Source: a virus
IMG/VR virus record: IMGVR_UViG_3300023174_006299
Location: 1 to 20,562 of that record
DNA: 20,562 bases
Reading direction: 5' to 3' (one strand)
Shown here piece by piece: positions 5,978 to 19,767 of the stretch (position 1 is its first letter; the number at the start of each line of letters is the position of its first letter). A program made the position numbers and the translations under genes. The notes under the pieces were generated by a model that saw only the letters and a list, made by a program, of their open reading frames with translations, ran no database searches and had not been told where the DNA came from.

Positions 5978-5983
5978 GTTATG
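5975..5983 (+). promoter_or_regulatory. TAAGTTATG start-codon box of the clamp-loader gene
   Basis: A one-base variant of the shared start box. The TAA of the box is also the stop codon of the preceding gene, so the motif is kept even where it has to overlap a stop. Confidence 0.4.
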
Positions 5984-6901
5984 TCAAAAAGGTTACACAC
6001 AATATTAAATGAAAAGTATCGTCCAGACACTTTGGAAGGATACATTTGTAAAGATGAAGTGAAAGTAAAATTTCAAGAATTCATTGACAATCAAGACATT
6101 CCACACCTCCTATTTGCAGGAAAACCAGGCGCAGGAAAAACAACACTTGCAAAAATATTAGTCAACAACATTGACTGTGACTTTCTTTACATCAACGCAA
6201 CTGATGAAAGATCAATTGACATTATGAGAGACAAAGTAGGAGCATTTGCTGCTGCTGGATCATTTAAGCCACTTAAAATAGTGATTTTAGATGAAGCAAC
6301 TCACATTTTACAAGCAGGACAAGTTATTTTGTTAAACATGATGGAAACATATTCTTTAACAACTCGTTTTATTTTAACAGGAAACTATGCAGAACGATTG
6401 ATTGAACCTTTAAGAAGCAGATGTCAAGAATTTGACTTGTCTCCTCCAAGTAAAAAAGTAGTGGCACAACATGTTAGCATCATCTTAGACAAGGAAGACA
6501 TTGAATATGAAATTCCTGATTTAGTCACTATTGTAAACAAGTTTTATCCTGACTTTAGAAAAATCATCAACAACTGTCAAAAGTACACTATTGATGGAAC
6601 TTTAACATTAGACAACTCAATAAATGAATCTAATGACTATCAAGTAAAAATATTAGAAGAACTCAAAAAACCATCTATCAAGTCATTTAATGTTATAAGG
6701 CAAATTGTTGCAAATTCAGAAGTAGATGACTTTGAAAGTTTATATAAATTTTTATACAATAAATTAAATGAATATGCTAAAGAAAATGAAGGTACAATTA
6801 TATGTACTTTGGAGGAACATATGTATCACGCTCATTTTGTTTTGGACAAAGAAATAAACATCATGGCCTGCATAGGTAAAATTTTAGAAACAATCAAATA
6901 A
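5981..6901 (+). CDS. 44: Clamp loader large subunit, AAA+ ATPase (gp44 / RFC small-subunit type)
   Basis: Codes for 306 aa; T4 gp44 is 319. With gp62 it opens the gp45 ring and loads it on primer-template DNA using ATP. Motifs: an N-terminal LNEKYRPDTLEGY signature of RFC/gp44 proteins (residues 9-21), Walker A GKPGAGKT at 47-54, Walker B VILDEA at 101-106 (DEAT in place of DEAD), sensor 1 TGN at 133-135, and the SRC motif RSRC at 145-148 whose Arg acts on the neighbouring subunit's ATP. The C-terminal third is the helical collar domain. It sits in an operon with small unknown genes and a gp62-like partner one gene away. In T4, gene 44 is a target of the RegA repressor at its start codon; here the start carries a TAAGTTATG box. 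Confidence 0.95.
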   Translation: MSKRLHTILNEKYRPDTLEGYICKDEVKVKFQEFIDNQDIPHLLFAGKPGAGKTTLAKILVNNIDCDFLYINATDERSIDIMRDKVGAFAAAGSFKPLKIVILDEATHILQAGQVILLNMMETYSLTTRFILTGNYAERLIEPLRSRCQEFDLSPPSKKVVAQHVSIILDKEDIEYEIPDLVTIVNKFYPDFRKIINNCQKYTIDGTLTLDNSINESNDYQVKILEELKKPSIKSFNVIRQIVANSEVDDFESLYKFLYNKLNEYAKENEGTIICTLEEHMYHAHFVLDKEINIMACIGKILETIK

Positions 6902-7166: not shown

Positions 7167-7613
7167 ATGACAAAAACATCTAGTAAAGTAAAGACATTTA
7201 CCATCTTTGATTTTCTTAAAGCAATCATTGACACAAAGCCAAATTGGGACACATTTGGACCTGAACAAAGAAAAGTGTTTAACATATACATGATTCATAA
7301 ATTTTTAAGCATGAATCCAAAGTATGTTGACATTGCTAACTACATTCAAAAGTTAAACATTCAAGATCCTAAAAAATTGTATGAAGTGTACTGTTATATG
7401 ATTCCACAAAGTAAAAACACTTACTCTCCTTACATCAAGTCAACTGTTAAAAAAACCTTATCACCTGAAGTACTCCAACATGTTTCTGAATATTTTAAAT
7501 GTTCAACAGTTGAAGCAGAAGAATACATTCAAATTACAGATGATAAATGGCTGGAAAATGTTTTGCTAAGTAAGGGAGTTGATGAAAAACAAGTTAAAAA
7601 ACTAATCAAATGA
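7167..7613 (+). CDS. 62: Probable clamp loader small subunit (gp62-like)
   Basis: Codes for 148 aa; T4 gp62 is 187. gp62 is the single non-ATPase subunit that completes the gp44 pentamer. Support is mainly positional: it lies just downstream of gp44 in the same unit. Pattern support is modest: an N-terminal FDFLKAIIDTKPNW, then MIHKFLSMNPKYVDIANYIQKL near residues 42-63, which resembles the helical 'FM...LS..P' region of gp62, and PQSKNTYSPYIKSTVKK near 89-105, comparable to the PK-RY-W segment of gp62. The C-terminal half is helical and ends in Lys-rich residues. The stop overlaps the next small gene (ATGA). It could instead be an unrelated helical protein. Confidence 0.55.
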   Translation: MTKTSSKVKTFTIFDFLKAIIDTKPNWDTFGPEQRKVFNIYMIHKFLSMNPKYVDIANYIQKLNIQDPKKLYEVYCYMIPQSKNTYSPYIKSTVKKTLSPEVLQHVSEYFKCSTVEAEEYIQITDDKWLENVLLSKGVDEKQVKKLIK

Positions 7614-7732
7614 AGACTCAATTAGATGAATTAAATGAATTTCTAATTAAGCTAGGAAATACTGATGGTATTGGTATTCGTAGAAAAATAGTAGCAATTA
7701 AAAAATATCTAGAAAAACTAATAAATGGCTAA
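7610..7732 (+). CDS. 40-aa open frame overlapping both neighbours
   Basis: The start ATG overlaps the gp62-like stop (ATGA) and the stop overlaps the next gene's start region by eight bases. Without it there would be a gap of about 110 bases in an otherwise gap-free region. The product begins MKTQLDELNEFLIKLG and ends KKYLEKLING, with a Gly-Ile-Gly-Ile turn in the middle. It looks like a basic helix-turn-helix-shaped miniprotein of unknown role. Support is context and tight coupling only. Confidence 0.55.
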   Translation: MKTQLDELNEFLIKLGNTDGIGIRRKIVAIKKYLEKLING

Positions 7733-8087
7733 AGAAGAAAAAGAATACGCTGAACTATCAGTTATAGCTCAACTAGAAGAAGAATATCCAACCATCGCAA
7801 ATGGATATAAGAAAATCATTAGAGAACAGTATGAACTGTTTGCTAGAAAACATCTTGACTATGGAATGACTAATGTAGCAGCAGGCACTCAACTGGCAAA
7901 TGATGAAGAAAAACAATTCGCTTTAACAGGTCTGTTTTTCAGACTAAATGATAAAGTGAGTAGATGGAAAAATCTTATCATGACTAAACAAGTTGCTAAA
8001 AATGAAGCGTTAACAGACACTTATCAAGACATCACTAACTATGGTATTATAGCACAGTTAGTAGAGAGAGGATTGTGGAAAAAATAA
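7725..8087 (+). CDS. Nmad1/DUF1599-family protein (nucleotide-modification associated)
   Basis: Codes for 120 aa. The pattern LFARKHLDYGMTN near residues 38-50, LFFRLNDKVSRWKNLI near 70-85 and LTDTYQDITNYGIIAQLV near 97-114 matches the DUF1599 family, also called nucleotide modification associated domain 1. Members occur in phages, often near thymidylate or base-modification genes, and are thought to act on nucleotides. The conserved Lys/Asp-Tyr-Gly, Arg-x-x-Asp-Lys and Asp-Thr-x-x-Asp residues are all kept. No biochemical function is established to my knowledge. It lies one base before the PD-(D/E)XK nuclease gene. Family assignment is by eye. Confidence 0.75.
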   Translation: MAKEEKEYAELSVIAQLEEEYPTIANGYKKIIREQYELFARKHLDYGMTNVAAGTQLANDEEKQFALTGLFFRLNDKVSRWKNLIMTKQVAKNEALTDTYQDITNYGIIAQLVERGLWKK

Positions 8088-8088
8088 T

Positions 8089-9036
8089 ATGAAAAAAATT
8101 CCTTCCATCATAAAGAAAATACAGGACTTTAAGCCAGTGGCTGTTGACTATGCTTTTCAAAAGAGCATATCTTACTCACAACTGTCAATGTTTTTATCTT
8201 GTCCTAAAAAATGGTCTTTACAGTATAAGGAAGGACATAAAATACCTAGTTTTTCTATCAACATGACTTTTGGAACTGCAGTGCATGAAACACTGCAAAA
8301 TTATCTGTCTGTGATGTACAATGAAAGTGGAGTAAAGGCAGATGCCATAAACATAGAAGAATACTTTGAAGAAAGATTTAGAGAAAACTATGCAAAGGGC
8401 TATAAGGACAACAAAAATGTTCACTTTAGCAGTCCAAAAGAAATGAGAGAATTCTATGATGATGGTTTAGCCATTTTAGACTTCATCAAGAAAAAGCGAA
8501 GTGAATATTTTAGTTTAAAAGATTGGCATTTAGTAGGAATTGAAATGCCCATTGTTATTGCGCCAAATAAAACGCATAACAACGTTTTATTCAATGGATT
8601 TATTGACTTAGTCTTATACCATGAACCTACAGAGCAATTCATTATATACGACATAAAAACTAGCACTCGTGGATGGAAAGACAAAGAAAAGAAAGATGAA
8701 GTTAAACAATTTCAAATATTGTTGTACAAGTCATTTTTTAGTGAACAGTTTGGAGTGTCTGAAGAAAACATAGATGTTGAATTTTTTATAGTAAAAAGAA
8801 AAATATGGGAAGAAAGTGAATTTCCTCAAAAACGCATTCAACAGTTCAATCCTGCAAATGGCAAAATAAAAGTTAAAAAAGCTAAAACAGCATTGAGCAC
8901 TTTTATAGAAGAAACATTTAATCTTGATGGTTCATATAAGACTGTAAGTCATCAAGCAACACCATCAAAATGGGCCTGTGCATACTGTCCTTACAAGTTA
9001 AATAAGGAGTTGTGCAATGAAGCGATTTTAAAGTAG
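8089..9036 (+). CDS. PD-(D/E)XK nuclease, RecB/Cas4-like, possible Fe-S cluster
   Basis: Codes for 315 aa. The N-terminal ISYSQLSMFLSCPKKW (residues 27-42) and FGTAVHETLQ (61-70) are typical of the RecB-type nuclease family. Core residues fit: His66, Glu152, Asp173 in GFIDLVLY, Asp188-Ile-Lys190 in YDIKTS, and the Q-x-x-x-x-x-Y of QFQILLY (207-213). The C-terminus has CAYCPYKLNKELC, with Cys297, Cys300 and Cys309. Together with Cys38 this gives the one-plus-three cysteine layout of Cas4/AddB-type 4Fe-4S nucleases. Such enzymes are 5' or 3' exonucleases, or take part in recombination. In a phage, roles in end processing or host DNA degradation are plausible. It ends the replication block; the next gap carries a promoter-like box. 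Confidence 0.85.
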   Translation: MKKIPSIIKKIQDFKPVAVDYAFQKSISYSQLSMFLSCPKKWSLQYKEGHKIPSFSINMTFGTAVHETLQNYLSVMYNESGVKADAINIEEYFEERFRENYAKGYKDNKNVHFSSPKEMREFYDDGLAILDFIKKKRSEYFSLKDWHLVGIEMPIVIAPNKTHNNVLFNGFIDLVLYHEPTEQFIIYDIKTSTRGWKDKEKKDEVKQFQILLYKSFFSEQFGVSEENIDVEFFIVKRKIWEESEFPQKRIQQFNPANGKIKVKKAKTALSTFIEETFNLDGSYKTVSHQATPSKWACAYCPYKLNKELCNEAILK

Positions 9037-9072: not shown

Positions 9073-9240
9073 ATGGATGAAATACTCACATCAGTAAAAG
9101 TTAACAAAGAAATATTTGACACTTTTAAAATAGAATGCATTAAAAGAAAATTTTCTTTAAATAAGCTTGTAAATCGAGCAATGGATTTGTATCTTAACTC
9201 AGAAGAATTTAGAAAACAAGTTACTAATCACAATAAATAA
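9073..9240 (+). CDS. Small ribbon-helix-helix DNA-binding protein
   Basis: Codes for 55 aa beginning MDEILTSVKVNKEIFDTFK. Residues 5-12 (LTSVKVNK) form the predicted ribbon strand; residues 13-24 and 30-41 (SLNKLVNRAMDLYL) form two helices. This is the Arc/MetJ/CopG-like fold, which acts as a dimer on operator DNA. It is preceded by a TATATTTA box. It is likely a phage transcriptional regulator; its targets are unknown. The spacing and AT-rich leader fit the neighbouring genes. It is the only regulator-like protein seen in the window. Confidence 0.7.
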   Translation: MDEILTSVKVNKEIFDTFKIECIKRKFSLNKLVNRAMDLYLNSEEFRKQVTNHNK

Positions 9241-9248
9241 ACACTAAA

Positions 9249-9259
9249 TAAGTTATATG
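9249..9259 (+). promoter_or_regulatory. TAAGTTATATG start-codon box of the first glycosyltransferase
   Basis: A variant of the shared start box with the AT extension, as at groES. It is the last of the seven boxes; none occurs at starts further downstream. Confidence 0.35.
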
Positions 9260-10702
9260 AATTCAAGTTTTGCCTATTTGCCTCAAAATGAGAGGAAAAA
9301 AATCATGCTCATTTGTGACGACATTCGAGTACACTCAGGAGTAGCAACGGTTGCTCGAGAAATGGTTCTTAACACAGCCCAACACTTTAACTGGATACAA
9401 GTTGCGGGAGCACTAAATCATCCAGACAAAGGTAAAAAATTAGACATTTCTCAAGACACTAATCTCAACACAGGATTGACAGACAGTTCAATTGCCATTT
9501 ATCCAGTAGATGGATATGGTGACGCCAATTTAATTAGACAACTTATTAAAATTGAAAAACCTGATGCTGTATTTTTAATCACTGATCCAAGATATTTCAT
9601 TTGGCTGTTTCAAATTGAAAATGAAATTAGAAGAAAAATTCCTATTGTTTACTTAAACATTTGGGACAACTATCCAGCTCCAATGTACAACAGACCATAC
9701 TATGAAGCATGTGATGCATTGTTAGGCATTTCTAAACAAACTGTAAACATCAACAAGTTAGTGTTAGGAGATAAAGTAAAAGATAAAATAATTGAATATG
9801 TGCCTCATGGATTAAATCATGATTTATTCAGACCTTTTTCTAATGAGGAAAAGAAAAATCCTGAATATGTTAAATTTAAAAATGAAATGTTTAAAGGAAA
9901 AGAATATGACTTTGTCTTATTTTTCAACTCAAGAAACATTCGCAGAAAACAAATTCCAGACACTTTACTAGCATATAAATTGTTCATTGATGAATTGCCT
10001 AAAGAAAAAGCAAAACGTTGTGCTATAATGTTACACACTCAAATATGTGACGACAATGGAACAGATTTAGCAGCAGTAAAAGAATACTTATTTAGTGATG
10101 ATGAAAAATACAACATTTTGTTTTCACCAGGAATGTTAAATCCTCAACAAATGAGCTATTTATACAACTTAACAGACGCTCAAATATTGCTAACAAGCAA
10201 TGAAGGTTGGGGATTGGCATTAACAGAAGCCATTTTATGTGGAAATCCAATTATAGCAAATGTAACAGGAGGAATGCAAGACCAAATGCGTTTTGTAAAA
10301 GATAAAAAATGGATGGAATTGGACGCTGATTTTCCTTCCAACCACAATGGCACAGTTAAAGAACATGGAGAATGGGCCTTCCCAGTATTTCCAACTAGCA
10401 GATCAATTCAAGGTTCTCCTATTACTCCATACATTTGGGACGACAGATGCACAGCAGAAGATGCAGCATTACAAATTAAAGCCGTTTATGACTTAAATAA
10501 AGAAGAACGTAAAGCAAGAGGATTGAAAGGTAGACAATGGGCTTTAAGTGATGAAGCAGGATTAACAGGAGAAAAAATGGGTCAAAGAATCATTAAATAT
10601 TTAGACATTTTGTTTTCAACTTGGAAGCCAAGAGCAAAATTTGAACTTATCAACACCAAAAATGTAGAAAAAAGAGTATTAAATCATAAAATTATATATT
10701 AA
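9257..10702 (+). CDS. GT-B glycosyltransferase (GT4-like)
   Basis: Codes for 481 aa. The N-terminal Rossmann-like half begins IMLICDDIRVHSGVATVAREM, where the Gly-rich turn near residues 26-30 is usual in GT4 enzymes. The hinge has YVPHGLNHDLFRP at 181-193, equivalent to the PHG-D motif. The C-terminal half has FFNSRNIRRKQIP near 222-234 and the E-x7-E donor-binding motif NEGWGLALTEA (Glu316 and Glu324), followed by GNPIIANVTGG. It should transfer a sugar from a nucleotide donor, with retention if it is truly GT4. The acceptor is unknown: phage DNA, virion protein or host glycan are possible. It starts from a TAAGTTATATG box. The codons for VPHGL carry 15 bases repeated at the start of the next gene. 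Confidence 0.88.
   Translation: MNSSFAYLPQNERKKIMLICDDIRVHSGVATVAREMVLNTAQHFNWIQVAGALNHPDKGKKLDISQDTNLNTGLTDSSIAIYPVDGYGDANLIRQLIKIEKPDAVFLITDPRYFIWLFQIENEIRRKIPIVYLNIWDNYPAPMYNRPYYEACDALLGISKQTVNINKLVLGDKVKDKIIEYVPHGLNHDLFRPFSNEEKKNPEYVKFKNEMFKGKEYDFVLFFNSRNIRRKQIPDTLLAYKLFIDELPKEKAKRCAIMLHTQICDDNGTDLAAVKEYLFSDDEKYNILFSPGMLNPQQMSYLYNLTDAQILLTSNEGWGLALTEAILCGNPIIANVTGGMQDQMRFVKDKKWMELDADFPSNHNGTVKEHGEWAFPVFPTSRSIQGSPITPYIWDDRCTAEDAALQIKAVYDLNKEERKARGLKGRQWALSDEAGLTGEKMGQRIIKYLDILFSTWKPRAKFELINTKNVEKRVLNHKIIY
9800..9814 (+). repeat. 15-bp direct repeat, copy 1 (inside glycosyltransferase gene)
   Basis: GTGCCTCATGGATTA lies in the PHG motif codons and is identical to 10745-10759, which spans the HNH gene start. 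The match is exactly 15 bp, with different flanking bases on both sides. Confidence 0.8.
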
Positions 10703-10732
10703 TTGTATTATTCCATGAGGTACACATATTTA
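10703..10732 (+). promoter_or_regulatory. Putative promoter for the HNH gene inside its hairpin (ATTG-N19-CATATTTA)
   Basis: TTG at 10703-10705, then 19 bp, then CATATTTA at 10725-10732. The box differs by one base from the window consensus. It lies in the loop of the inverted repeat whose right arm covers the HNH start codon. A start near 10737 would exclude the left arm from the mRNA, leaving a leader of about 15 nt. Confidence 0.5.
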
Positions 10733-10755
10733 TAATAAAATAAGGTGCCTCATGG
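10713..10755 (+). promoter_or_regulatory. Start-codon-sequestering hairpin of the HNH gene
   Basis: The left arm CCATGAGGTAC (10713-10723) pairs with the right arm GTGCCTCATGG (10745-10755) over 11 bp, with one G-U pair and a 21-nt loop. The right arm contains the HNH start codon (10752-10754). In read-through RNA from the upstream gene this should block translation. The promoter box is in the loop. There is no T-run after it, so it does not look like a terminator. Confidence 0.7.
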
Positions 10756-10759
10756 ATTA
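10745..10759 (+). repeat. 15-bp direct repeat, copy 2 (HNH gene start)
   Basis: GTGCCTCATGGATTA, identical to 9800-9814 in the upstream glycosyltransferase gene. It forms the right arm of the hairpin and the first codons of the HNH gene. Confidence 0.8.
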
Positions 10760-11435
10760 TCAAAACATTTACAGTCAAATAATAGAACGCGCTAAAACTC
10801 GTCAAATACAAGGTTATAAAGAAAAACATCATATTGTACCTAAGTGTATAGGTGGTATTGATGAAAAGGAAAACATAGCTGAATTAACAGCTAAGGAACA
10901 TTTTTTATGCCATATGTTACTTTGTGAAATATATCCTAAAGAATATAAACTTAGACATGCCTTATTTTTAATGACCATAGGTAAACAAAAAGTTAAAGAA
11001 AATACATATGTTATAGGTTCAAGAGTTTATGAACGGTTAAGAAAAGAATATTCTCAAATGCTAACTGGTAAAAAACATAGTGAAGAAACATGTATTAAGA
11101 AAAGTAATAAAATGAAAGAAATTTGGGGTTCTAAATCTTATGAAGAAAAACAACTTATATCTTCTAAGAGACAAAAAACTAAACTTAAAAACGGAACAAA
11201 TAAAATTAGTAAAACCACTGCTGAAAATATATCTAAATCACTACAAGGGAGAAAAATAACATGGGATCGAGGAGTGAATAAGAAAATACTACAGTTTGAT
11301 TTAAAAGGAAATTTTATAAAGGAATGGAATAGTATAGCTGAAGCTAGTAGGAGTGTAAAGGGAGATGTTGGGTCTCACTTAACAGGAAGACAAAAAACAG
11401 CTGGAGGTTACATTTGGAAGTATAAAGAAAATTAG
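10752..11435 (+). CDS. Free-standing HNH homing endonuclease with NUMOD domains
   Basis: Codes for 227 aa. The HNH nuclease spans about residues 24-60: KHHIVPKCIGG (His26/His27), Asn41 in ENIAEL, and His50 and His54 in EHFLCHMLL. A NUMOD3-like segment GKKHSEETCIKKS follows at 107-119, and a C-terminal NUMOD1 domain (ILQFDLKGNFIKEWNSIAEA, then GYIWKYK at 219-225) should help DNA recognition. The gene sits between two intact glycosyltransferase genes and not inside an intron or intein, so it is a free-standing mobile endonuclease. Codon use is richer in NNT than in the upstream glycosyltransferase, consistent with mobility. Its expression appears controlled by the hairpin and internal promoter just upstream. 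Its target is unknown; the neighbouring glycosyltransferase gene is a candidate. Confidence 0.92.
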   Translation: MDYQNIYSQIIERAKTRQIQGYKEKHHIVPKCIGGIDEKENIAELTAKEHFLCHMLLCEIYPKEYKLRHALFLMTIGKQKVKENTYVIGSRVYERLRKEYSQMLTGKKHSEETCIKKSNKMKEIWGSKSYEEKQLISSKRQKTKLKNGTNKISKTTAENISKSLQGRKITWDRGVNKKILQFDLKGNFIKEWNSIAEASRSVKGDVGSHLTGRQKTAGGYIWKYKEN

Positions 11436-11444
11436 TTATATTTA
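11413..11444 (+). promoter_or_regulatory. Putative promoter for the second glycosyltransferase (TTTG-N20-TATATTTA)
   Basis: TTTG at 11413-11416 (inside the last HNH codons), then 20 bp, then TATATTTA at 11437-11444. This is a perfect match to the window pattern. A start near 11449 would give a leader of about 12 nt to the ATG at 11461. Confidence 0.6.
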
Positions 11445-11460
11445 AATAAAAATCAAATTT

Positions 11461-12762
11461 ATGAATAGTAAAAACACATGTGTTATTTATGCTGCGATAG
11501 ATACACTCTCAGGCTACGGCGCACGCAGTAGAGACACTGTAAAGTCAATCATTGAATTGAAAAAAGATGAATGGGATTTTAAAATTATACCTTGCAATTG
11601 GGGAAACACTCCAAATGGATTTATTGAAGACAATCCTGAATGGCATTTTTTAAACAAATATCTTTATCCACAACAACTTACCACTCAGCCAGATGTTATG
11701 ATTTGGATTACTGTGCCAAATGAATTTCAAAAAGTAGGAAAATACAACATTGGCATAACTGCAGGTTTAGAAATAAACATGGTGCCAGCTGAATGGATTG
11801 AAGGAATGAACAGAATGGACTTAACATTAGTGTCATCAGAACATTCTAAAAAAGCATTTTTAGCGTCTAAATTTCAAAAAGTAAATGACACAACAAAACA
11901 AGTAGAAAGTATTGTTGAAATGAAAACACCTATTGAAGTTATATTTGAAGGTGTAGACACAAACATTTACAAACACTTAGAAGTGCCTAACAAAAAGATA
12001 GGCAATCTAGATTCAATTTCTGAAGATTTTTGCTACTTGTTTCTAGGACATTGGCTTCCAGGTGACTTAGGAGAAGACAGAAAAAATGTAGGACTGCTAA
12101 TTAAAGCATTTATAGAAACATTTAAAAATAAAAAAGTAAAACCTGCTCTTATTTTAAAAACATCTTTAGTAGGTTCATCATACATGGAACGTGATGAAAT
12201 TTTAAAACGAATTGAACAAATTAAATCAACATGTGCTACTGTAGACATGCCTAACATTTACTTGTTGCACGGAGAATTTACAGATGAAGAAGTAAATGAA
12301 TTGTACAACCATGTAAAAGTAAAGGCAATGGTATCATTAACTAAAGGTGAAGGATTTGGAAGACCACTACTTGAATTTACTCAAAGTAAAAAGCCAATTA
12401 TAACAACAAACTTCAGTGGCCATTTAGACTTCTTAAAGCCAGAATTTACAACTTTAATCAATGGTACTTTAACACCTGTTCATCCAAGTGCTGCAAACAA
12501 CATGTTGTTGAAAGAAGGTTCATGGTTTTCACCTGACACAGGTCAAGTAGGATTTTACTTAAAAGACATGTTTGAAAATTATAAAAACTATGTTGATGGA
12601 GGAAAAAGACAAGGATTTTACTGTAAACAAAATTTCTCATTTGAAAAAATGACTGAAAAAATGTCTGAGTACTTAAAACTAATTCCTGAATTTCCAAAAC
12701 AAATACAATTAAAATTACCACAATTGAAAAAAATTGAATTACCAAAACTAACTAAAATATGA
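11461..12762 (+). CDS. GT-B glycosyltransferase (GT4-like), second copy type
   Basis: Codes for 433 aa. The N-terminal half begins VIYAAIDTLSGYGARSRDT; the hinge has IEVIFEGVDTNIY (158-170), the equivalent of the PHG-D motif. The C-terminal half has FLGHWLPG near 194-201 and an E-x7-E donor motif GEGFGRPLLE (Glu297 and Glu305) followed by KPIITTNFSGHLDFL. It is divergent from the gene at 9257 in the N-terminal acceptor half, so different acceptors are likely. The C-terminal tail is Lys/Leu/Pro-rich (IQLKLPQLKKIELPKLTKI), a repeated pattern that might be a membrane or protein contact. The stop overlaps the next start by four bases. Confidence 0.85.
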   Translation: MNSKNTCVIYAAIDTLSGYGARSRDTVKSIIELKKDEWDFKIIPCNWGNTPNGFIEDNPEWHFLNKYLYPQQLTTQPDVMIWITVPNEFQKVGKYNIGITAGLEINMVPAEWIEGMNRMDLTLVSSEHSKKAFLASKFQKVNDTTKQVESIVEMKTPIEVIFEGVDTNIYKHLEVPNKKIGNLDSISEDFCYLFLGHWLPGDLGEDRKNVGLLIKAFIETFKNKKVKPALILKTSLVGSSYMERDEILKRIEQIKSTCATVDMPNIYLLHGEFTDEEVNELYNHVKVKAMVSLTKGEGFGRPLLEFTQSKKPIITTNFSGHLDFLKPEFTTLINGTLTPVHPSAANNMLLKEGSWFSPDTGQVGFYLKDMFENYKNYVDGGKRQGFYCKQNFSFEKMTEKMSEYLKLIPEFPKQIQLKLPQLKKIELPKLTKI

Positions 12763-14128: not shown

Positions 14129-14758
14129 ATGAAAATTAGTTATGCAATTACTGTTTGTAATGAGTTAGAAGAAATTATAAGATTACTTGATCTTCTTCTT
14201 AAAAACAAGCAAAAGCAAGATGAAATTGTAGTGTTAATGGACATAACAAAAGCTAATGAACAGTTAACATCAACTCTGCGTCATTATGAAATGCACAACA
14301 TAGATCACATGGTTGTGTGGCCAGGAGAATTTGAAGGACACTTTGCCAATTGGAAAAACAAACTTAATAGTTACTGTAAAGGAGACTATATTTTTCAAAT
14401 AGATGCTGATGAAATGGTTAGTGAAACATTAATTCAAAACTTATCTGACATTTTAGAATACAATTTAAACAATGAAGTTTACTTAGTTGCTAGAATCAAC
14501 ACAGTAGATGGATTAACTGAAGAACATGTTAACAAATGGAAGTGGAATGTGAATGAAAATAATTGGATAAATTTTCCTGATTATCAATGGAGAATTTACA
14601 AAAATGATTCTAAAATTGTTTGGATAAATAAAGTACATGAGCGTCTATCAGGATTTAATACATATGCTAATTTGCCACCATCATTAGAATACTGTTTATT
14701 GCACCACAAAACAATAGCAAAGCAAGAAAAACAAAACAATTTTTACGATACATTATGA
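14129..14758 (+). CDS. Family 2 glycosyltransferase (GT-A)
   Basis: Codes for 209 aa. It begins KISYAITVCNELEEIIRLLDLLL, a normal GT2 N-terminus where the donor nucleotide binds. The DXD motif is DAD at 92-94 within GDYIFQIDADEMV, which coordinates metal and nucleotide-sugar phosphates. The C-terminal part has WRIYKNDSKIVWINKVHERL (residues 153-172) and a His-His pair near the end, as in WaaE/SunS-type GT2 enzymes that act on lipopolysaccharide or protein. It is shorter than many GT2 proteins but covers the core domain. The stop overlaps the next start (ATGA). Confidence 0.88.
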   Translation: MKISYAITVCNELEEIIRLLDLLLKNKQKQDEIVVLMDITKANEQLTSTLRHYEMHNIDHMVVWPGEFEGHFANWKNKLNSYCKGDYIFQIDADEMVSETLIQNLSDILEYNLNNEVYLVARINTVDGLTEEHVNKWKWNVNENNWINFPDYQWRIYKNDSKIVWINKVHERLSGFNTYANLPPSLEYCLLHHKTIAKQEKQNNFYDTL

Positions 14759-15567
14759 AGTTATTCATAAATCATTTTGATAAAAAAACTGTAGAGTCAA
14801 AAATGCCTCATTTAAAGGATATAGATTTTTCTTTATTTGTTGATGATATTCCTAAATCTCAAGATGATTTATCTCCAATTAATATTCTAGTACTTCAAGA
14901 ACCAAATGAATATTTTGGTTTACATGATTGGGCTATTCAAAATAAAGATACATTTGCAGCTATATTAACTTGGGATGATAAAATATTAAACAACTGTGAA
15001 AATGCTGTATTTTTACCTTTTGGTCATACTTGGTTTAAACCTGATCAATATGAAAAAGAACATAAAAAAGAATTTAAAGTAGCTCATTTATGTGGTAAAT
15101 TATTAAAAACATATGGTCAATCTTTAAGACATGAATTGTTAGCTAGAAAAAATGAAATTAAAATACCAACTAAGTTTTTTGATGTATATGGAGATAGACA
15201 CAATATTGAAAGTGCTAGAATAGGTAAAGAAGAAGTATTTGGAGATTCAATGTTTGGAGTAGCCATTGAAAACACATCTCATAGAGGATATTTTACTGAA
15301 AAGATACTAGATTGCTTTTTATTAAAAATAATTCCTACATATTGGGGTTGTTCAAACATAGAAGATTTCTTTAATAAAGAAGGTATAATTAAATTTAAAA
15401 ACATAGATGATTTAATTTATATTTCTAATCAATTAACAGAAGATTATTATATCTCTAAAAAGAATATTATTGAAGAAAATTATCAAAAAGCACTTCAATA
15501 TGTTAATTATGAACAAAATATAGTAAATAAAATAATAGAAATATTTAAACATAATAATTTAATATGA
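14755..15567 (+). CDS. GT10-like (fucosyltransferase-type) glycosyltransferase
   Basis: Codes for 270 aa. The C-terminal half contains FGVAIENTSHRGYFTEKILDCF (around 167-188), then LKIIPTYWGCSNIEDFF (around 190-206). This is the donor-binding signature of GT10 alpha-1,3/4-fucosyltransferases (EN-x-x-x-x-x-Y-x-TEK ... P-x-Y-x-G). The N-terminal half is short and divergent. GDP-fucose is the usual donor of the family, but the real donor here is unknown; no fucose synthesis gene was seen in the window. It overlaps its neighbours by four bases on both sides. Codons are AAT- and GAT-rich. Confidence 0.82.
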   Translation: MKLFINHFDKKTVESKMPHLKDIDFSLFVDDIPKSQDDLSPINILVLQEPNEYFGLHDWAIQNKDTFAAILTWDDKILNNCENAVFLPFGHTWFKPDQYEKEHKKEFKVAHLCGKLLKTYGQSLRHELLARKNEIKIPTKFFDVYGDRHNIESARIGKEEVFGDSMFGVAIENTSHRGYFTEKILDCFLLKIIPTYWGCSNIEDFFNKEGIIKFKNIDDLIYISNQLTEDYYISKKNIIEENYQKALQYVNYEQNIVNKIIEIFKHNNLI

Positions 15568-16181
15568 AATATTATTCACAATTTGAACAAGATAAATTTA
15601 TTTATGAGAATTATTTTATAAATAAAACAAAAGGATATTTTGTTGATATTGGAGCCCATGATGGAATAACATTTAGTAATTCTAAATTTTTTGAAGAACT
15701 AGGTTGGGATGGAGTATGCATAGAACCTAATCCTAAAATATTTGAAATATTACAATCAACTCGTAAATGTAAATGTATTAAAAAAGCTGTGTCTAATAAT
15801 ATAGGAGTATCTCAATTTTTTCAAATTATAGACGGTCCAGATATGTTAAGTGGTTTAGTAGAAGAATTTGATGATAATGCTGTATTAAGAATAAATAATG
15901 AACTCCAAGATAAATCAAAAGGATTTGATTATATAAATGTACAATGTGATTTATTTGAAAATATAGTTGATCAAAATCAAATTGATATTTTGTCATTAGA
16001 CACTGAAGGCAATGAATTAAAAATTCTTCAAACTATAGATTTTAATAAATATGATATTAAAATAATTACTGTTGAAAATAATAATTATGATAAAACATTT
16101 TTTGATTTTTTAATTCTTAAAAATTACACATTTGTTACATCACTAGGTTGTGATGAAATTTACTTAAAACATATAATATAA
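15564..16181 (+). CDS. FkbM-family SAM-dependent methyltransferase
   Basis: Codes for 205 aa. The SAM-binding start is FVDIGAHDGITFSNSKFFEELGW (around 26-48), with Asp28, Gly30 and Asp33, and motif II is VCIEPNP at 51-57. A later LSLDTEGNELKIL (around 147-159) is the conserved D-x-E-G-x-E of FkbM proteins. These enzymes O-methylate sugars and glycan ends in many polysaccharide clusters. All 18 Asn codons are AAT and 17 of 19 Asp codons are GAT, compared with 8 of 22 and 4 of 13 in the clamp gene. It overlaps the previous stop by four bases and is followed after one base by the PLP enzyme gene. Confidence 0.9.
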   Translation: MKYYSQFEQDKFIYENYFINKTKGYFVDIGAHDGITFSNSKFFEELGWDGVCIEPNPKIFEILQSTRKCKCIKKAVSNNIGVSQFFQIIDGPDMLSGLVEEFDDNAVLRINNELQDKSKGFDYINVQCDLFENIVDQNQIDILSLDTEGNELKILQTIDFNKYDIKIITVENNNYDKTFFDFLILKNYTFVTSLGCDEIYLKHII

Positions 16182-16182
16182 T

Positions 16183-17334
16183 ATGACTGCAAAAAGAAAA
16201 GTATGGTATGCTCCAAATAAGTTTGAATCTTATGGAGAAGAAGAAATTAAAGCTGTAGAAGCTTGTTTACGTGATGGATGGTTAGCTGGATTTGGTCCTC
16301 GCTCAATTAAATTTGAAGAAAAAATAGCAAAACGATTTGGCAAGAAGTATGGTGTATTTGTAAACTCAGGTTCTTCAGCTTGCTTATTGGCATTAGCTGC
16401 ATTAGACCTAGTTAAGGGATGCAAAGTAATAACACCTGCGTGCACATTCAGTACCACATTAGCTCCAATTATCCAATTAGGATTTAAGCCAGTATTTGTT
16501 GATGTAGGTTTAGATACCTATGTTCCAAGTGTTGATGACATAATGGCACTAATTGACAATGAAGTAAAAGCAATTATGGTACCAAATTTAATTGGTAATA
16601 AACCCAACTGGAAACTATTAAAAGAATCATTGATTAGTATTGGTAGAAGTGATATTATTGTGATAGAAGATTCAGCAGACACAATCACTCTTACAGAGGA
16701 TACTGATGTAGCTACTACAAGCTTCTATGCAAGTCATATCATCACTGCAGGAGGTACTGGAGGTATGGTGATGTTTAATGATAAGAAGCATGTTGATAGA
16801 GCATTGCAGTATAGAGATTGGGGTCGTATGGGTGATAACTCAGAGGTTATGGATGATCGTTTTAATCATATTGTAGATGGCATTCCATATGATCATAAAT
16901 TTTTATATGGAGTATTAGGTTATAATTTTAAATGTAGTGAGATGAGTGCTGCGTTTGGATTAGTGCAGTTAGAAAGATTTGAAACTTTTAAACATAAAAG
17001 AAGAGAAAACTTTGAACGCTACTTAACAAACTTAAAGGATGTTAAAGAATTATTATTACCTGATGATAGTATACAACCTAACTGGTTAGCTATTCCACTA
17101 CAAACAGAAAGACGCTTAGAATTATTAACATTTTTAGAAAAAAATAATATCCAGACTAGAGTTACTTTTGCGGGTAATGTTACTCGTCATCCAATTTATA
17201 GAGAATACTTGCAAGACTTTACTAACGCAGATGCAATTATGAAAAATGGATTTCTATTAGGAGCACACCATGGAATGAGTGTTGAGGATGTAGATTACGT
17301 TTGTAATAAAATTAAAGAATTTTTTAAAAAATGA
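16183..17334 (+). CDS. PLP-dependent sugar 3-dehydratase-like enzyme (RfbH/ColD type; DegT family fold)
   Basis: Codes for 383 aa. It has the DegT/DnrJ/EryC1 aminotransferase fold: NSGSSACLLAL at 61-71, ITPACTFSTTLAPIIQLG (around 83-100), FVDV at 105-108, and IEDSAD at 161-166, which holds the pyridine nitrogen. The position that normally carries the PLP-binding Lys is His185 in SFYASHIITAGGTGG. His at this place is the hallmark of sugar 3-dehydratases such as ColD and the E1/RfbH enzymes, which remove the C3 hydroxyl instead of transaminating. YDHKFLYGVLGYNFKCSEMSAAFG (around 236-259) and FAGNVTRHPIYR (around 329-340) also match RfbH more than aminotransferases. The cluster cysteines of E1 (in the WGR...RF segment) are absent (WGRMGDNSEVMDDRF), as in ColD. 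The product is likely a 3-deoxy sugar. Confidence 0.85.
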   Translation: MTAKRKVWYAPNKFESYGEEEIKAVEACLRDGWLAGFGPRSIKFEEKIAKRFGKKYGVFVNSGSSACLLALAALDLVKGCKVITPACTFSTTLAPIIQLGFKPVFVDVGLDTYVPSVDDIMALIDNEVKAIMVPNLIGNKPNWKLLKESLISIGRSDIIVIEDSADTITLTEDTDVATTSFYASHIITAGGTGGMVMFNDKKHVDRALQYRDWGRMGDNSEVMDDRFNHIVDGIPYDHKFLYGVLGYNFKCSEMSAAFGLVQLERFETFKHKRRENFERYLTNLKDVKELLLPDDSIQPNWLAIPLQTERRLELLTFLEKNNIQTRVTFAGNVTRHPIYREYLQDFTNADAIMKNGFLLGAHHGMSVEDVDYVCNKIKEFFKK

Positions 17335-18287
17335 AAGTAGTTTACATAACAGGTTGTTTAGGATTTATAGGATCTTATGTAACAAGAACATGTCTTCAAA
17401 AAGGATGGTATGTTAAAGGAGTTGATAAAATAACTTATGCTGCTAATAAAGATCTATTAAATGAGTTTAAACAATATGATAATTTTTCATTTGTTCATTG
17501 TGACATTAATGATTTAAAATTTTTATATGATTGTGACTATGTAATTAATACTGCAGCTGAAACTCATGTAGGAAATAGTATAGCAAGTAGTACTGAGTTT
17601 GTTAAATCAAATATTGATGGTGTTCACAACTTATTAGAACTTATTAAAAATCACAGAGGAGAAAATGTTAAAAAACCAACTCTAATTCATTTTAGTACAG
17701 ATGAAGTATATGGAGACATTGAAGAAGGAGATCACACAGAAAATGATTTACTTAAACCATCTAATCCATATTCAGCTACAAAAGCAGCTGCTGATATGTT
17801 AGTAATGGCTTGGGGAAGAACTCATAAAGTACCTTATATTATAGTTAGACCAACTAATAATTATGGTGTTGGTCAATATGTAGAAAAACTTATTCCTAAA
17901 GCATGCAAATGTCTTAAATTAGGAAGAAAAATCCCATTACATAATAATGGAACTCCTATTCGAAATTGGCTTCATGCTCAAGATACAGCAGATGCAGTTG
18001 TGACAATTATTAAATCAGGAGTAGAAAATGAAATTTATAATATTTGTGGAGGATTTGAGCAAAGTAATTTGGATACTATAAAAAAAGTTCTTATATTATA
18101 CTATAAAGGAGATGTAGATGAGAATTTTAGACAATATCTAGATTTATCATGTGATAGACAAGGACAAGATGTTCGTTATGCATTAAATGATGATAAACTA
18201 AGAGTACTAGGTTGGGAACCAAAAAAGAACTTTGATGAGGAATTACCTAAAATTGTAGAATACTATAACAATAAATTTATATGGTAA
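17331..18287 (+). CDS. Nucleotide-sugar 4,6-dehydratase-like extended SDR (RmlB-type)
   Basis: Codes for 318 aa, typical of the family. NAD-binding GxxGxxG is GCLGFIG (8-14). The TDE motif HFSTDEVYG (120-128) holds the Asp-Glu pair that catalyses water elimination in RmlB and GDP-mannose 4,6-dehydratase, and the YxxxK pair is Tyr147/Lys151 in YSATK. VRPTNNYGVGQYVEKLIPK (172-190) and TPIRNWLH follow as in dTDP-glucose 4,6-dehydratases. The product, a 4-keto-6-deoxy sugar nucleotide, is the known substrate class of the adjacent 3-dehydratase-like enzyme. It overlaps that gene by four bases, so the two are probably made together. The donor base (dTDP, GDP, CDP or UDP) cannot be read from the sequence. 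Confidence 0.88.
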   Translation: MKVVYITGCLGFIGSYVTRTCLQKGWYVKGVDKITYAANKDLLNEFKQYDNFSFVHCDINDLKFLYDCDYVINTAAETHVGNSIASSTEFVKSNIDGVHNLLELIKNHRGENVKKPTLIHFSTDEVYGDIEEGDHTENDLLKPSNPYSATKAAADMLVMAWGRTHKVPYIIVRPTNNYGVGQYVEKLIPKACKCLKLGRKIPLHNNGTPIRNWLHAQDTADAVVTIIKSGVENEIYNICGGFEQSNLDTIKKVLILYYKGDVDENFRQYLDLSCDRQGQDVRYALNDDKLRVLGWEPKKNFDEELPKIVEYYNNKFIW

Positions 18288-18297
18288 ATAAAATAAA

Positions 18298-18960
18298 ATG
18301 GAAGAATTAACATTGGATGATTTGGCAAATAAATATGAAACAGATAAAGGTACTTTGTATGGTGCTCGAACAGTACATGGATATGCTCCTTTATATGATA
18401 CCTATTTAAATAAATGGAGACATGAAGGTATAAGAATGCTTGAATTAGGTATATGCATGGAAGGAACTCCAGGAGGACATTCAGTTAGAATGTGGTATAA
18501 CTATTTTACCCAAGCAAATATTTTTACTTTTGACATAGTGGACATGACTCATCTAGAATTAGAAAGTGATAGAGTTAAATTTTATCAAGGTGATCAAGGC
18601 AATAGAGAAGATTTTAAAAAAATGTACAAAAACTTTGGAAATAAACCTTTTGATTTTATCTTAGAAGATGGATCTCACTTACATTACCATCAAATAATTT
18701 CACTAGGAGGTCTATTTCCATATGTTAAATCAGGAGGGTATTATATACTAGAAGACATGACTGAACGTGGTATTCCTACTTGTTGTAGTGATAATGATGA
18801 TACACTAGATACATTAAGAAAGTTTATTGACACAGGGGTAATGGATAACGAACATTTAACTGATGATGAAAAAATATATTTACAAAATAATATAAGTAAA
18901 ATAGAAATATTCCCTGATATTTTAAATGCTTACAGAGTTGCTATTATACATAAAAAATAA
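18298..18960 (+). CDS. Macrocin-type sugar O-methyltransferase
   Basis: Codes for 220 aa. It starts with LANKYETDKGTLYG (around 9-22); the 'DKG-T' and following HGYAPLYDTYL are the N-terminal signature of demethylmacrocin and tetracenomycin-sugar O-methyltransferases. The SAM-binding part is MLELGICMEGTPGGHSVRMW (around 47-66), then FDIVD (78-82), FYQGDQG (95-101), and a metal-binding ILEDGSH (121-127) with Asp124 and His127. These enzymes methylate hydroxyls of deoxy sugars, which fits its place after the 3-dehydratase/4,6-dehydratase pair. The leader is A-rich without Shine-Dalgarno. An internal TATATTTA at 18875 is likely coincidental. Confidence 0.85.
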   Translation: MEELTLDDLANKYETDKGTLYGARTVHGYAPLYDTYLNKWRHEGIRMLELGICMEGTPGGHSVRMWYNYFTQANIFTFDIVDMTHLELESDRVKFYQGDQGNREDFKKMYKNFGNKPFDFILEDGSHLHYHQIISLGGLFPYVKSGGYYILEDMTERGIPTCCSDNDDTLDTLRKFIDTGVMDNEHLTDDEKIYLQNNISKIEIFPDILNAYRVAIIHKK

Positions 18961-18966
18961 ATTAAA

Positions 18967-19767
18967 ATGAATACAAGAGAATTTAAATGTGTAAAAATCC
19001 TAACTGATCTTATTGAAAATGAAGGTTTAGTAGGTATCAAAACCTCTTTTGAAGATGAAGGAGCATTATTTAATGAAACTATACGCCTTAAAGAGATATG
19101 CAATCAGGCAAAAACTAAAATTACTTTAAAAATAGGTGGACCTGAAGCAATTAGAGATATAAAAGATGCTCAAATTATAGGTGTAAAAGGTTTAGTAGCG
19201 CCTATGATAGAATCAGAGTTTGGTTTAAAAAAGTTTATTCAAGCTACCAAATTATATATTCCTAAGGATATATTATCTGCAACTCAACTTAATATTAATA
19301 TTGAAACAGTTACAGCTGTTAGTAATGCTATTAAGATGTTGGATATAGATGAAGCTAAGGAACTATATGGTGTTACTGTTGGTCGAGTAGATTTAGTATC
19401 ATCTTTAGAAAAAGATAGAAATTATGTTAATAGTGAGGAAGTTTATAAAATGGTTTACGGAGTATTTTTAAAAGCTAAAGAAAAAGGACTTAAGGCTTGT
19501 TTAGGTGGTGCTATATCTATTGATTCATTAGATTTTTTAAAAAAACTACATTCTGAAAGATTACTTGATAAATTTGAAACTAGATATGCAATGTTTGATC
19601 CATCAATAACATTAAAAAATTTATCAAAAGCTTTATCAAAAGCACAGATGTTTGAATATGAGTGGTTAATGTGTAAACATGAACAATATACATTAATGGC
19701 TGATCAAGATATTAAAAGAATTAAAATGATTCAAGATCGTATTAACCAATCTGTATCATTCAAATAA
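18967..19767 (+). CDS. HpcH/HpaI-like aldolase family protein
   Basis: Codes for 266 aa. The N-terminus has LVGIKTSFEDEGALFNE (around 21-37), LKIGGPEAIRDIKDA (54-68), and GVKGLVAPMIESEFGLKKF (72-90), where the Glu of the PMIE motif (Glu82) is the metal ligand in HpcH/HpaI aldolases. VTVGRVDLVSSL corresponds to the later metal-site Asp region, and KGLKACLGGAIS to the next strand. Family members cleave or form 2-keto-3-deoxy acids using pyruvate. Here it may make or break a keto-sugar acid; that is inference. It overlaps the following SDR gene as TAATG. The length matches the family (about 260). Confidence 0.72.
   Translation: MNTREFKCVKILTDLIENEGLVGIKTSFEDEGALFNETIRLKEICNQAKTKITLKIGGPEAIRDIKDAQIIGVKGLVAPMIESEFGLKKFIQATKLYIPKDILSATQLNINIETVTAVSNAIKMLDIDEAKELYGVTVGRVDLVSSLEKDRNYVNSEEVYKMVYGVFLKAKEKGLKACLGGAISIDSLDFLKKLHSERLLDKFETRYAMFDPSITLKNLSKALSKAQMFEYEWLMCKHEQYTLMADQDIKRIKMIQDRINQSVSFK

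Follow-up and report, generated by a model that had tools for sequence, protein, structure and literature searches.

Why would a phage keep a gene for a protein named after nucleotide modification directly in front of a nuclease gene? The question is raised by an IMG/VR virus record of 20,562 bases (IMGVR_UViG_3300023174_006299; this whole 20.6-kb stretch of DNA is called the window here), in which an Nmad1/DUF1599 protein of 120 amino acids (7725..8087, plus strand) is separated by a single base from a 315-amino acid nuclease of the PD-(D/E)XK, RecB/Cas4-like type (8089..9036, plus strand). An initial annotation described this arrangement and the nuclease cysteines 38, 297, 300 and 309, both of which are confirmed here, and proposed that the nuclease attacks unmodified DNA while the phage DNA is protected, with nearby glycosyltransferases supplying hypermodification. 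We found that the Nmad1-nuclease pairing is conserved, and that Nmad1 belongs to a set of three small protein families without detectable kinship that strictly and repeatedly replace one another before the nuclease. It is this replacement that is new here; no publication on the exchange pattern was found by title or abstract in a body of literature mostly without subscription journals.

Exchange of the gene before the nuclease

The edges of the exchanged segment were defined by blastn comparison of the window with a closely related locus, L005. The upstream flanks are 99.1% identical up to position 7613, which is the last base of the stop codon of a gp62-like clamp loader small subunit gene (7167..7613, plus strand; phrog_225, E 7.6e-16), and the downstream flanks are 98.3% identical from position 8092, the second codon of the nuclease. 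The sequences between these flanks (478 bp in the window, 7614..8091, plus strand, and 212 bp in L005) have no similarity. The segment of the window contains Nmad1 and, before it, an open reading frame (ORF) of 40 amino acids (7611..7733, plus strand) whose start codon shares an ATGA with the gp62 stop; among 130 such slots, this ORF was seen elsewhere only in L004, which is the same phage as the window. L005 carries instead a small protein of what we call the KYG-LD family, and here, too, an ATGA joins the stop of gp62 to the start of the small gene, whose own stop overlaps the start of the nuclease. Nmad1 and KYG-LD have thus replaced each other as cassettes bounded by the stop codon of gp62 and the start codon of the nuclease.

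The third occupant is a DUF3310 protein, found in the slot of Flavobacterium phage immuto, which of the annotated phage genomes gave the best match (42% identity). The KYG-LD proteins are 63-132 amino acids long and share an invariant pattern of K-Y, L-D and E..D...Y. Their strong PHROG matches were all to families of unknown function, in the five members scanned the Pfam matches were all sub-threshold and to unrelated families, and a PDB sequence search gave no convincing match; no library supports a 'maz' label for the family. Extra small ORFs and one HNH gene were also found in the slot. Profile comparisons (hhalign) among the three families and the PRA-PH pyrophosphatase family of these phages, eight in all including two negative controls with the nuclease and gp62 profiles, stayed below a probability of 2%, with shallow profiles and no positive control.

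To describe how the three families are distributed, seeded searches were made from each side; each list holds the best 80 of more matches, and near-identical contigs from different samples were counted separately. Exactly one slot family was present in 149 of the 154 distinct nuclease-seeded contigs, none in 5 and two in 0. A first scan contributed 80 contigs (31 with Nmad1 and 49 with KYG-LD) and a second one 74 further distinct contigs (34 Nmad1, 30 KYG-LD, 5 DUF3310 and 5 none) after three already present in the first had been dropped; four of the five contigs with no slot family were judged only within the stretch fetched. A permissive search for a second slot family on these nuclease-seeded contigs gave nothing better than E 0.078. 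The same picture was obtained with 32 whole records chosen for the nuclease, where Nmad1 was present in 19 and KYG-LD in 12 with no overlap, the remaining one being immuto, which has neither but carries DUF3310. When 141 de-duplicated loci (window included) were considered, 88 had both Nmad1 and the nuclease, 50 the nuclease only and 3 Nmad1 only.

Seeding from the other side, the nuclease lay downstream of Nmad1 in 68 of 71 and in 50 of 65 loci (two sets that share contigs), downstream of KYG-LD in 70 of 79 (42 of them within 150 bp) and downstream of the immuto-type DUF3310 in 80 of 80 (79 within 150 bp), a search that takes in close relatives only, since DUF3310 occurs in other phages too. 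In 15 contigs the nuclease is not adjacent to Nmad1; six of these carry one further off, and the nine without any nuclease are all of 20.7 kb or less. The genes are tightly packed: a start-stop overlap or a spacing of 0-10 bp to the nuclease was found in 151 of 191 Nmad1, 114 of 149 KYG-LD and 85 of 86 DUF3310 pairs, these being counts of loci in which some contigs figure more than once.

We then placed the slot genes on a quick maximum-likelihood tree of the nuclease (112 rows). The slot labels require at least seven changes, at least six of which are forced by well-supported branches, and shuffled labels give 34.6 changes on the same tree, so that the labels are strongly clustered, as under inheritance. 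Long branches are flagged in this tree (L003, L002 and others), and the window-L005 exchange is independent of it. Carriers of Nmad1 and of KYG-LD cannot be told apart by any column of the nuclease alignment, and the L004 nuclease, which is the same as that of the window, differs from that of L005 only in the first 17 residues and at position 224. Since near-identical nucleases have unrelated neighbours and no column tells them apart, a shared activity of the slot proteins seems likelier than a shared binding surface, and the comparison argues against a specific co-evolved interface.

The nuclease and its cysteines

The nuclease matched PF12705 (PDDEXK_1) with 85.8 bits against a cut-off of 22 (E 5.8e-24) and phrog_69 with E 6.8e-22, and it also matched exonuclease and Cas4-like PHROGs. 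The CRISPR cas4 equivalog TIGR00372 gave 23.6 bits, below its cut-off of 65, the NCBIfam and PADLOC Cas4 models gave weak matches, and a PDB sequence search gave no convincing match. From 266 distinct sequences we retained 236 full-length ones, that of the window included, and left out 30 that were cut off or short. C38, H66, D173, D188, K190, Q209, Y213, C297 and C300 are each present in 236 of 236; the motif consists of H66, D173, D188xK190 and Q209xxxY213, the residues taken as catalytic in the PF12705 family.

The window protein has no cysteines other than those at 38, 297, 300 and 309, and the conservation in homologues on which their interpretation hinges was borne out. C309 is kept in 229 of the 236 sequences, and the seven proteins that lack it all have a cysteine at most 10 residues before C297, which none of the 229 carriers has. 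These seven end early and correspond to a clade of six on the 112-row tree plus L241. The loss of C309 is thus matched by a gained cysteine in the same proteins, as fits a four-cysteine cluster, and the assignment of the window protein as an iron-sulfur (Fe-S) PD-(D/E)XK nuclease is well supported at the sequence level. PF12705 Cas4-like proteins are reported outside CRISPR in several phage groups, and a Campylobacter phage Cas4-like protein has been placed in the same family (pfam12705 PDDEXK_1; PMC5704561). The window nuclease resembles these phage Cas4-like/RecB-type Fe-S enzymes in its PF12705 match, its PD-(D/E)XK residues and its four cysteines (one N-terminal and three C-terminal), but differs in its length of 315 amino acids, in its place in a replication module behind gp44/gp62 or DUF3310, and in its last spacing, C-x2-C-x8-C, with the fourth cysteine before the CxxC in 7 of 236.

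The nuclease may plausibly act in DNA end processing or in the breakdown of host DNA, because an SbcC-type gene (PF13476 or a strong phrog_100 match) was not found in 9 of the 11 records searched, under a search whose control succeeded in 14 of 14 genomes. The idea that the nuclease simply replaces T4 gp46/47 was not cleanly upheld, as record G006 and Microcystis phage Mel-JY01 hold the nuclease plus an SbcD/SbcC-type frame; weak phrog_100 matches occurred in four records besides these two, in frames of 235-253 amino acids. In G006 and Mel-JY01 (G006 70079-71920 and PP395634.1 183215-184999) SbcD-like and SbcC-like matches fall within one frame of about 1060 amino acids, apparently a fused SbcDC; the two are also the records above 150 kb in which no DpdA match was found (see below).

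DNA modification, glycosyltransferases and neighbouring genes

Is Nmad1 part of a DNA modification pathway? Phage immuto is annotated with QueC, QueD, QueE, FolE, QueF and DpdA, and two relatives of 155-160 kb, G001 and G002, encode DpdA, QueC, QueD and FolE, with QueE found in G001 only. PHROGs names QueC, QueD and QueE of G001 and leaves its DpdA protein as unknown, so that the DpdA label rests on the immuto annotation. A DpdA profile matched 16 of the 32 nuclease-bearing records, many of which are fragments, and 6 of the 8 above 150 kb. By slot gene, the positive records were 12 with Nmad1, 3 with KYG-LD and immuto with DUF3310; since DpdA occurs with all three slot types, Nmad1 is not a marker of the DpdA pathway. 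Moreover, the two remaining records above 150 kb (G006 and Mel-JY01) have both the nuclease and Nmad1 without a DpdA match. In G001 and G002 a distance of 10-17 kb separates the DpdA and Que genes from the nuclease, and neither gave a match in the window, a fragment that stops short of that region. DNA modification in this lineage therefore appears likely from its gene content, but it does not track Nmad1, and any such modification is more likely to stem from the separate DpdA/7-deazaguanine pathway. The relatives resemble in this respect (DpdA, Que genes and FolE) the phages in which DpdA-dependent protection from restriction has been reported (PMC6884629). The expectation of modified DNA in the initial annotation may hence hold, as relatives encode DpdA, QueC, QueD and FolE, but Nmad1 is probably not its supplier, as it is exchanged irrespective of DpdA.

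Hydroxymethylation and glucosylation of the T4 kind were also searched for. T4 gp42, alpha-gt and beta-gt had no phmmer match at E of 0.05 or less in G001, G002 and positions 1-156,000 (of 160,366) of immuto, and none at E of 0.01 or less among the ORFs of the window, itself a fragment. PF00303, the family of thymidylate synthase and dCMP hydroxymethylase, was present in 6 of the 11 records, and since these six proteins scored 301-328 bits with the thymidylate synthase model TIGR03284 (cut-off 108) versus 30.6 for T4 gp42, they are plain thymidylate synthases. In Mel-JY01 (L003, 8090-9004) a C5 cytosine methyltransferase gene overlaps the nuclease start, and an S-adenosylmethionine synthase gene precedes it by two genes; of the 11 records, only this one gave a PF00145 match. 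Two loci, L163 and L168 (G001 94123-94650 and G002 31298-31825), gave a weak match to an immuto protein annotated as thymidylate kinase.

The glycosyltransferases likewise did not sustain the role first proposed for them, since they match no T4 DNA glucosyltransferase and are sited in a sugar cluster. Both belong to Glycos_transf_1 and lie on the plus strand, at 9257..10702 (PF00534, E 8.7e-7; immuto counterpart at L002 10159-11598) and 11461..12762 (PF00534, E 9.9e-9; L002 11604-12911). They are found in conserved order in immuto, G001, G002 and G004, are retained whichever slot gene is present, and are accompanied by genes for an aminotransferase, an epimerase and a methyltransferase-like protein, the setting one would expect if they serve sugars of the surface or the virion. 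This cluster (14129-19767) comprises glycosyltransferases of families 2 and 10, a DegT aminotransferase, a GDP-mannose dehydratase-like epimerase, a sub-threshold methyltransferase-like protein and an HpcH aldolase-like protein; judged by these predicted genes, it probably serves surface or virion glycans. A homing endonuclease gene (10752-11435; phrog_655, with sub-threshold Pfam NUMOD1/HNH matches) splits the two glycosyltransferases of the window (interval 10704-11508). L005 has only about 45 bp at this place, and relatives of the endonuclease occur elsewhere in L007.

Between the nuclease and the first glycosyltransferase lies a gene for a 55-amino acid protein (9073..9240, plus strand), conserved downstream of the nuclease by phmmer in L005, L007, L034, L013, L065 and L002, and with only sub-cut-off Pfam matches (Synaptobrevin and ParG). 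Each of the three slot types provides examples of this adjacency, and the order 55-amino acid protein, first and second glycosyltransferase is common to the Nmad1, KYG-LD and DUF3310 phages compared (L013, L034, L005, L007, L065 and L002). The full order in the window is PolB (T4 gp43-like), GroES, GroEL, gp44-like, gp62-like, the 40-amino acid ORF, Nmad1, nuclease, 55-amino acid protein and glycosyltransferases. The gp44-like clamp loader large subunit lies at 5981..6901 (plus strand; phrog_168, E 1.7e-74; phmmer with T4 gp44, E 1.4e-30); GroES and GroEL are named from their translations. In immuto a family A DNA polymerase is annotated before GroES, versus PolB in the window, and the slot-nuclease-glycosyltransferase order is kept there although T4 gp43 and gp44 matched nothing in it.

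Possible roles of the slot proteins

What, then, might the slot proteins do? The window Nmad1 matched PF07659 (DUF1599, 'Nucleotide modification associated domain 1') with 26.2 bits, just above the cut-off of 25, the alignment spanning only residues 74-111 (38 residues), and some relatives fall below the cut-off (L146, 24.8; L003, 15.8). For the chromosomal context of DUF1599 there was one MAG hit, from a phylum with only 3 genomes available. The likeness to the family consists in this match; unlike what its name implies, no modification gene was recognised beside the window Nmad1, which is one of three exchangeable small proteins. The invariant residues of a 39-row alignment include E34, K42, D45, Y46, G47, N50, R73, D76, K77, R80, K82, E94, D98, D102, N105 and Y106, among others, and the strong conservation of charged residues suggests an active or binding site, to judge from the alignment. 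The predicted model has four helices (mean predicted local distance difference test, pLDDT, 83.8). The longest alignment among the fold matches listed for it, 83 of 84 residues with the next longest at 70, was with 2p06 (AF0060; Z 7.2, root-mean-square deviation 3.5), a score tied with unrelated helical rows and within the chance range for helical bundles. AF0060 is classed under the all-alpha NTP pyrophosphatases in PMC4030988. Nmad1 thus resembles that group (AF0060-like, MazG and PRA-PH) in being modelled as a small all-helical protein and in the 2p06 alignment, but no sequence or profile similarity to it was found. Separately, several related ORFs of 184-206 amino acids flank Nmad1 in L149, L151 and L152, with an H..E..GGETEF pattern, which is typical of 2OG-Fe(II) oxygenases.

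From gene anatomy, residue conservation, mutual exclusion and repeated exchange, all of them observed, we infer activities that are put forward here as candidates. The explanation that we tentatively prefer, while giving it somewhat less than an even chance, is that the pair would form an early, replication-linked operon of a T4-like phage lineage, in which an interchangeable small helical, probably nucleotide-acting protein accompanies a DNA-processing Fe-S nuclease. The gene before the nuclease would be a slot for one such protein, Nmad1, KYG-LD or DUF3310, and whichever of them occupies it would provide an equivalent, interchangeable activity that most likely targets nucleotides; pyrophosphohydrolase-like clean-up of the deoxynucleoside triphosphate pool and nucleotide binding are candidates. 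They would be neither DNA modifiers nor dedicated subunits of the nuclease, itself a RecB/Cas4-type Fe-S enzyme that would act in replication, recombination or host-DNA breakdown. Several results weigh against this proposal. The pyrophosphatase fold match of Nmad1 is the weak, tied one given above; Foldseek gave nothing at E of 0.001 or less (E 1.8 for a pyrophosphatase fold), the best PDB sequence match had E 0.14, and hhalign against the phage PRA-PH family reached 0.3%, again with shallow profiles and no positive control. Relatives already encode a separate PRA-PH pyrophosphatase. The KYG-LD model has only two helices (predicted template modelling score, pTM, 0.41), and a fold search with it found no useful match. 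At least one slot, in L555, is truly empty. Finally, the pairing is steady: the nuclease lies 5-8 kb downstream in four of four Nmad1 contigs above 29 kb that lack an adjacent one, and DUF3310 loci keep it with no gp62 within 1 kb upstream, which could mean that the slot proteins regulate the nuclease.

This steadiness is indeed what a set of nuclease regulators or protectors (an inhibitor, loader or specificity factor) would show if unrelated families had evolved to bind the same enzyme, in a ratio set by translational coupling, and the 0-10 bp spacing or start-stop overlap usual in all three families, the distant nuclease of the four longer Nmad1 contigs and the DUF3310 pairs without gp62 all agree with it. 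However, nucleases about 98% identical stand beside unrelated neighbours, with no column separating Nmad1 from KYG-LD carriers, the many invariant charged residues that Nmad1 keeps across divergent phages are unlike a fast-evolving inhibitor, and the L555 slot lacks any such partner; we regard regulation as rather unlikely, if the nearest competitor. Slightly less probable still is that abortive-infection systems of the host sense the small protein, as a factor made early by the phage, and that it is exchanged because a substitute unrelated to it goes unrecognised. SaV of lactococcal phages consists of the DUF3310 domain; sav mutations are reported to confer insensitivity to AbiV, and SaV to be toxic on overexpression and to bind AbiV (PMC8306868, PMC3231927); a mycobacteriophage DUF3310 protein is also described as among the most toxic (cytotoxic) of its phage (PMC11373665), and exchange between phages as close as the window and L005 fits an arms race. 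The window differs from the SaV phages in having Nmad1, for which homology to DUF3310 was not detected. Against sensing, no record of Nmad1 being so sensed was found in the literature searched, where an unspecified 'nucleotide modification associated domain' is instead reported as predicted in a candidate bacterial defence system (PMC13092281). Sensing would, in addition, account for the exchange and not for the function, and is compatible with the operon proposal. In a bolder form, the three families would be functionally interchangeable partners of one conserved Fe-S nuclease module, swapped as precise cassettes because systems of the AbiV kind sense them, which would make the slot 'antigenic' within a replication operon; this, too, we consider unlikely.

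A neutral hotspot, in which small genes without a shared function are gained and lost next to the nuclease with the help of homing endonucleases, agrees with the extra small ORFs and the HNH gene in the slot and with the HNH genes that recur nearby, but empty and double slots would then be expected often, and exactly one of the three families was observed in 149 of 154 contigs and two in none; we judge it very improbable. The same low standing is given to the proposal that Nmad1, together with the glycosyltransferases, acts in DNA hypermodification while the nuclease degrades DNA that lacks the modification. The name that Pfam gives to PF07659, the predicted DpdA/deazaguanine pathway of relatives and the methyltransferase overlapping the nuclease start in Mel-JY01 speak for it, but Nmad1 is exchanged independently of DpdA and occurs with the nuclease in two records above 150 kb without a DpdA match, T4 gp42 and DNA glucosyltransferases gave no match in the genomes searched and the six PF00303 proteins are thymidylate synthases, and the glycosyltransferases are kept regardless of the slot gene. 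Movement of small nucleotide genes between phages has a precedent in cyanophage mazG (PMC2297514), where, as reported there, one family spreads; unlike that case, unrelated families replace one another here at one site.

Strict replacement at a single site links three orphan families, one of which is a known trigger of abortive infection, and a function found for one slot family would predict those of the others. The Pfam name 'nucleotide modification associated' is not to be read as DNA modification at this locus. At the same time, the analysis indicates that environmental viral contigs include a T4-like phage lineage whose DNA is probably modified with deazaguanine.

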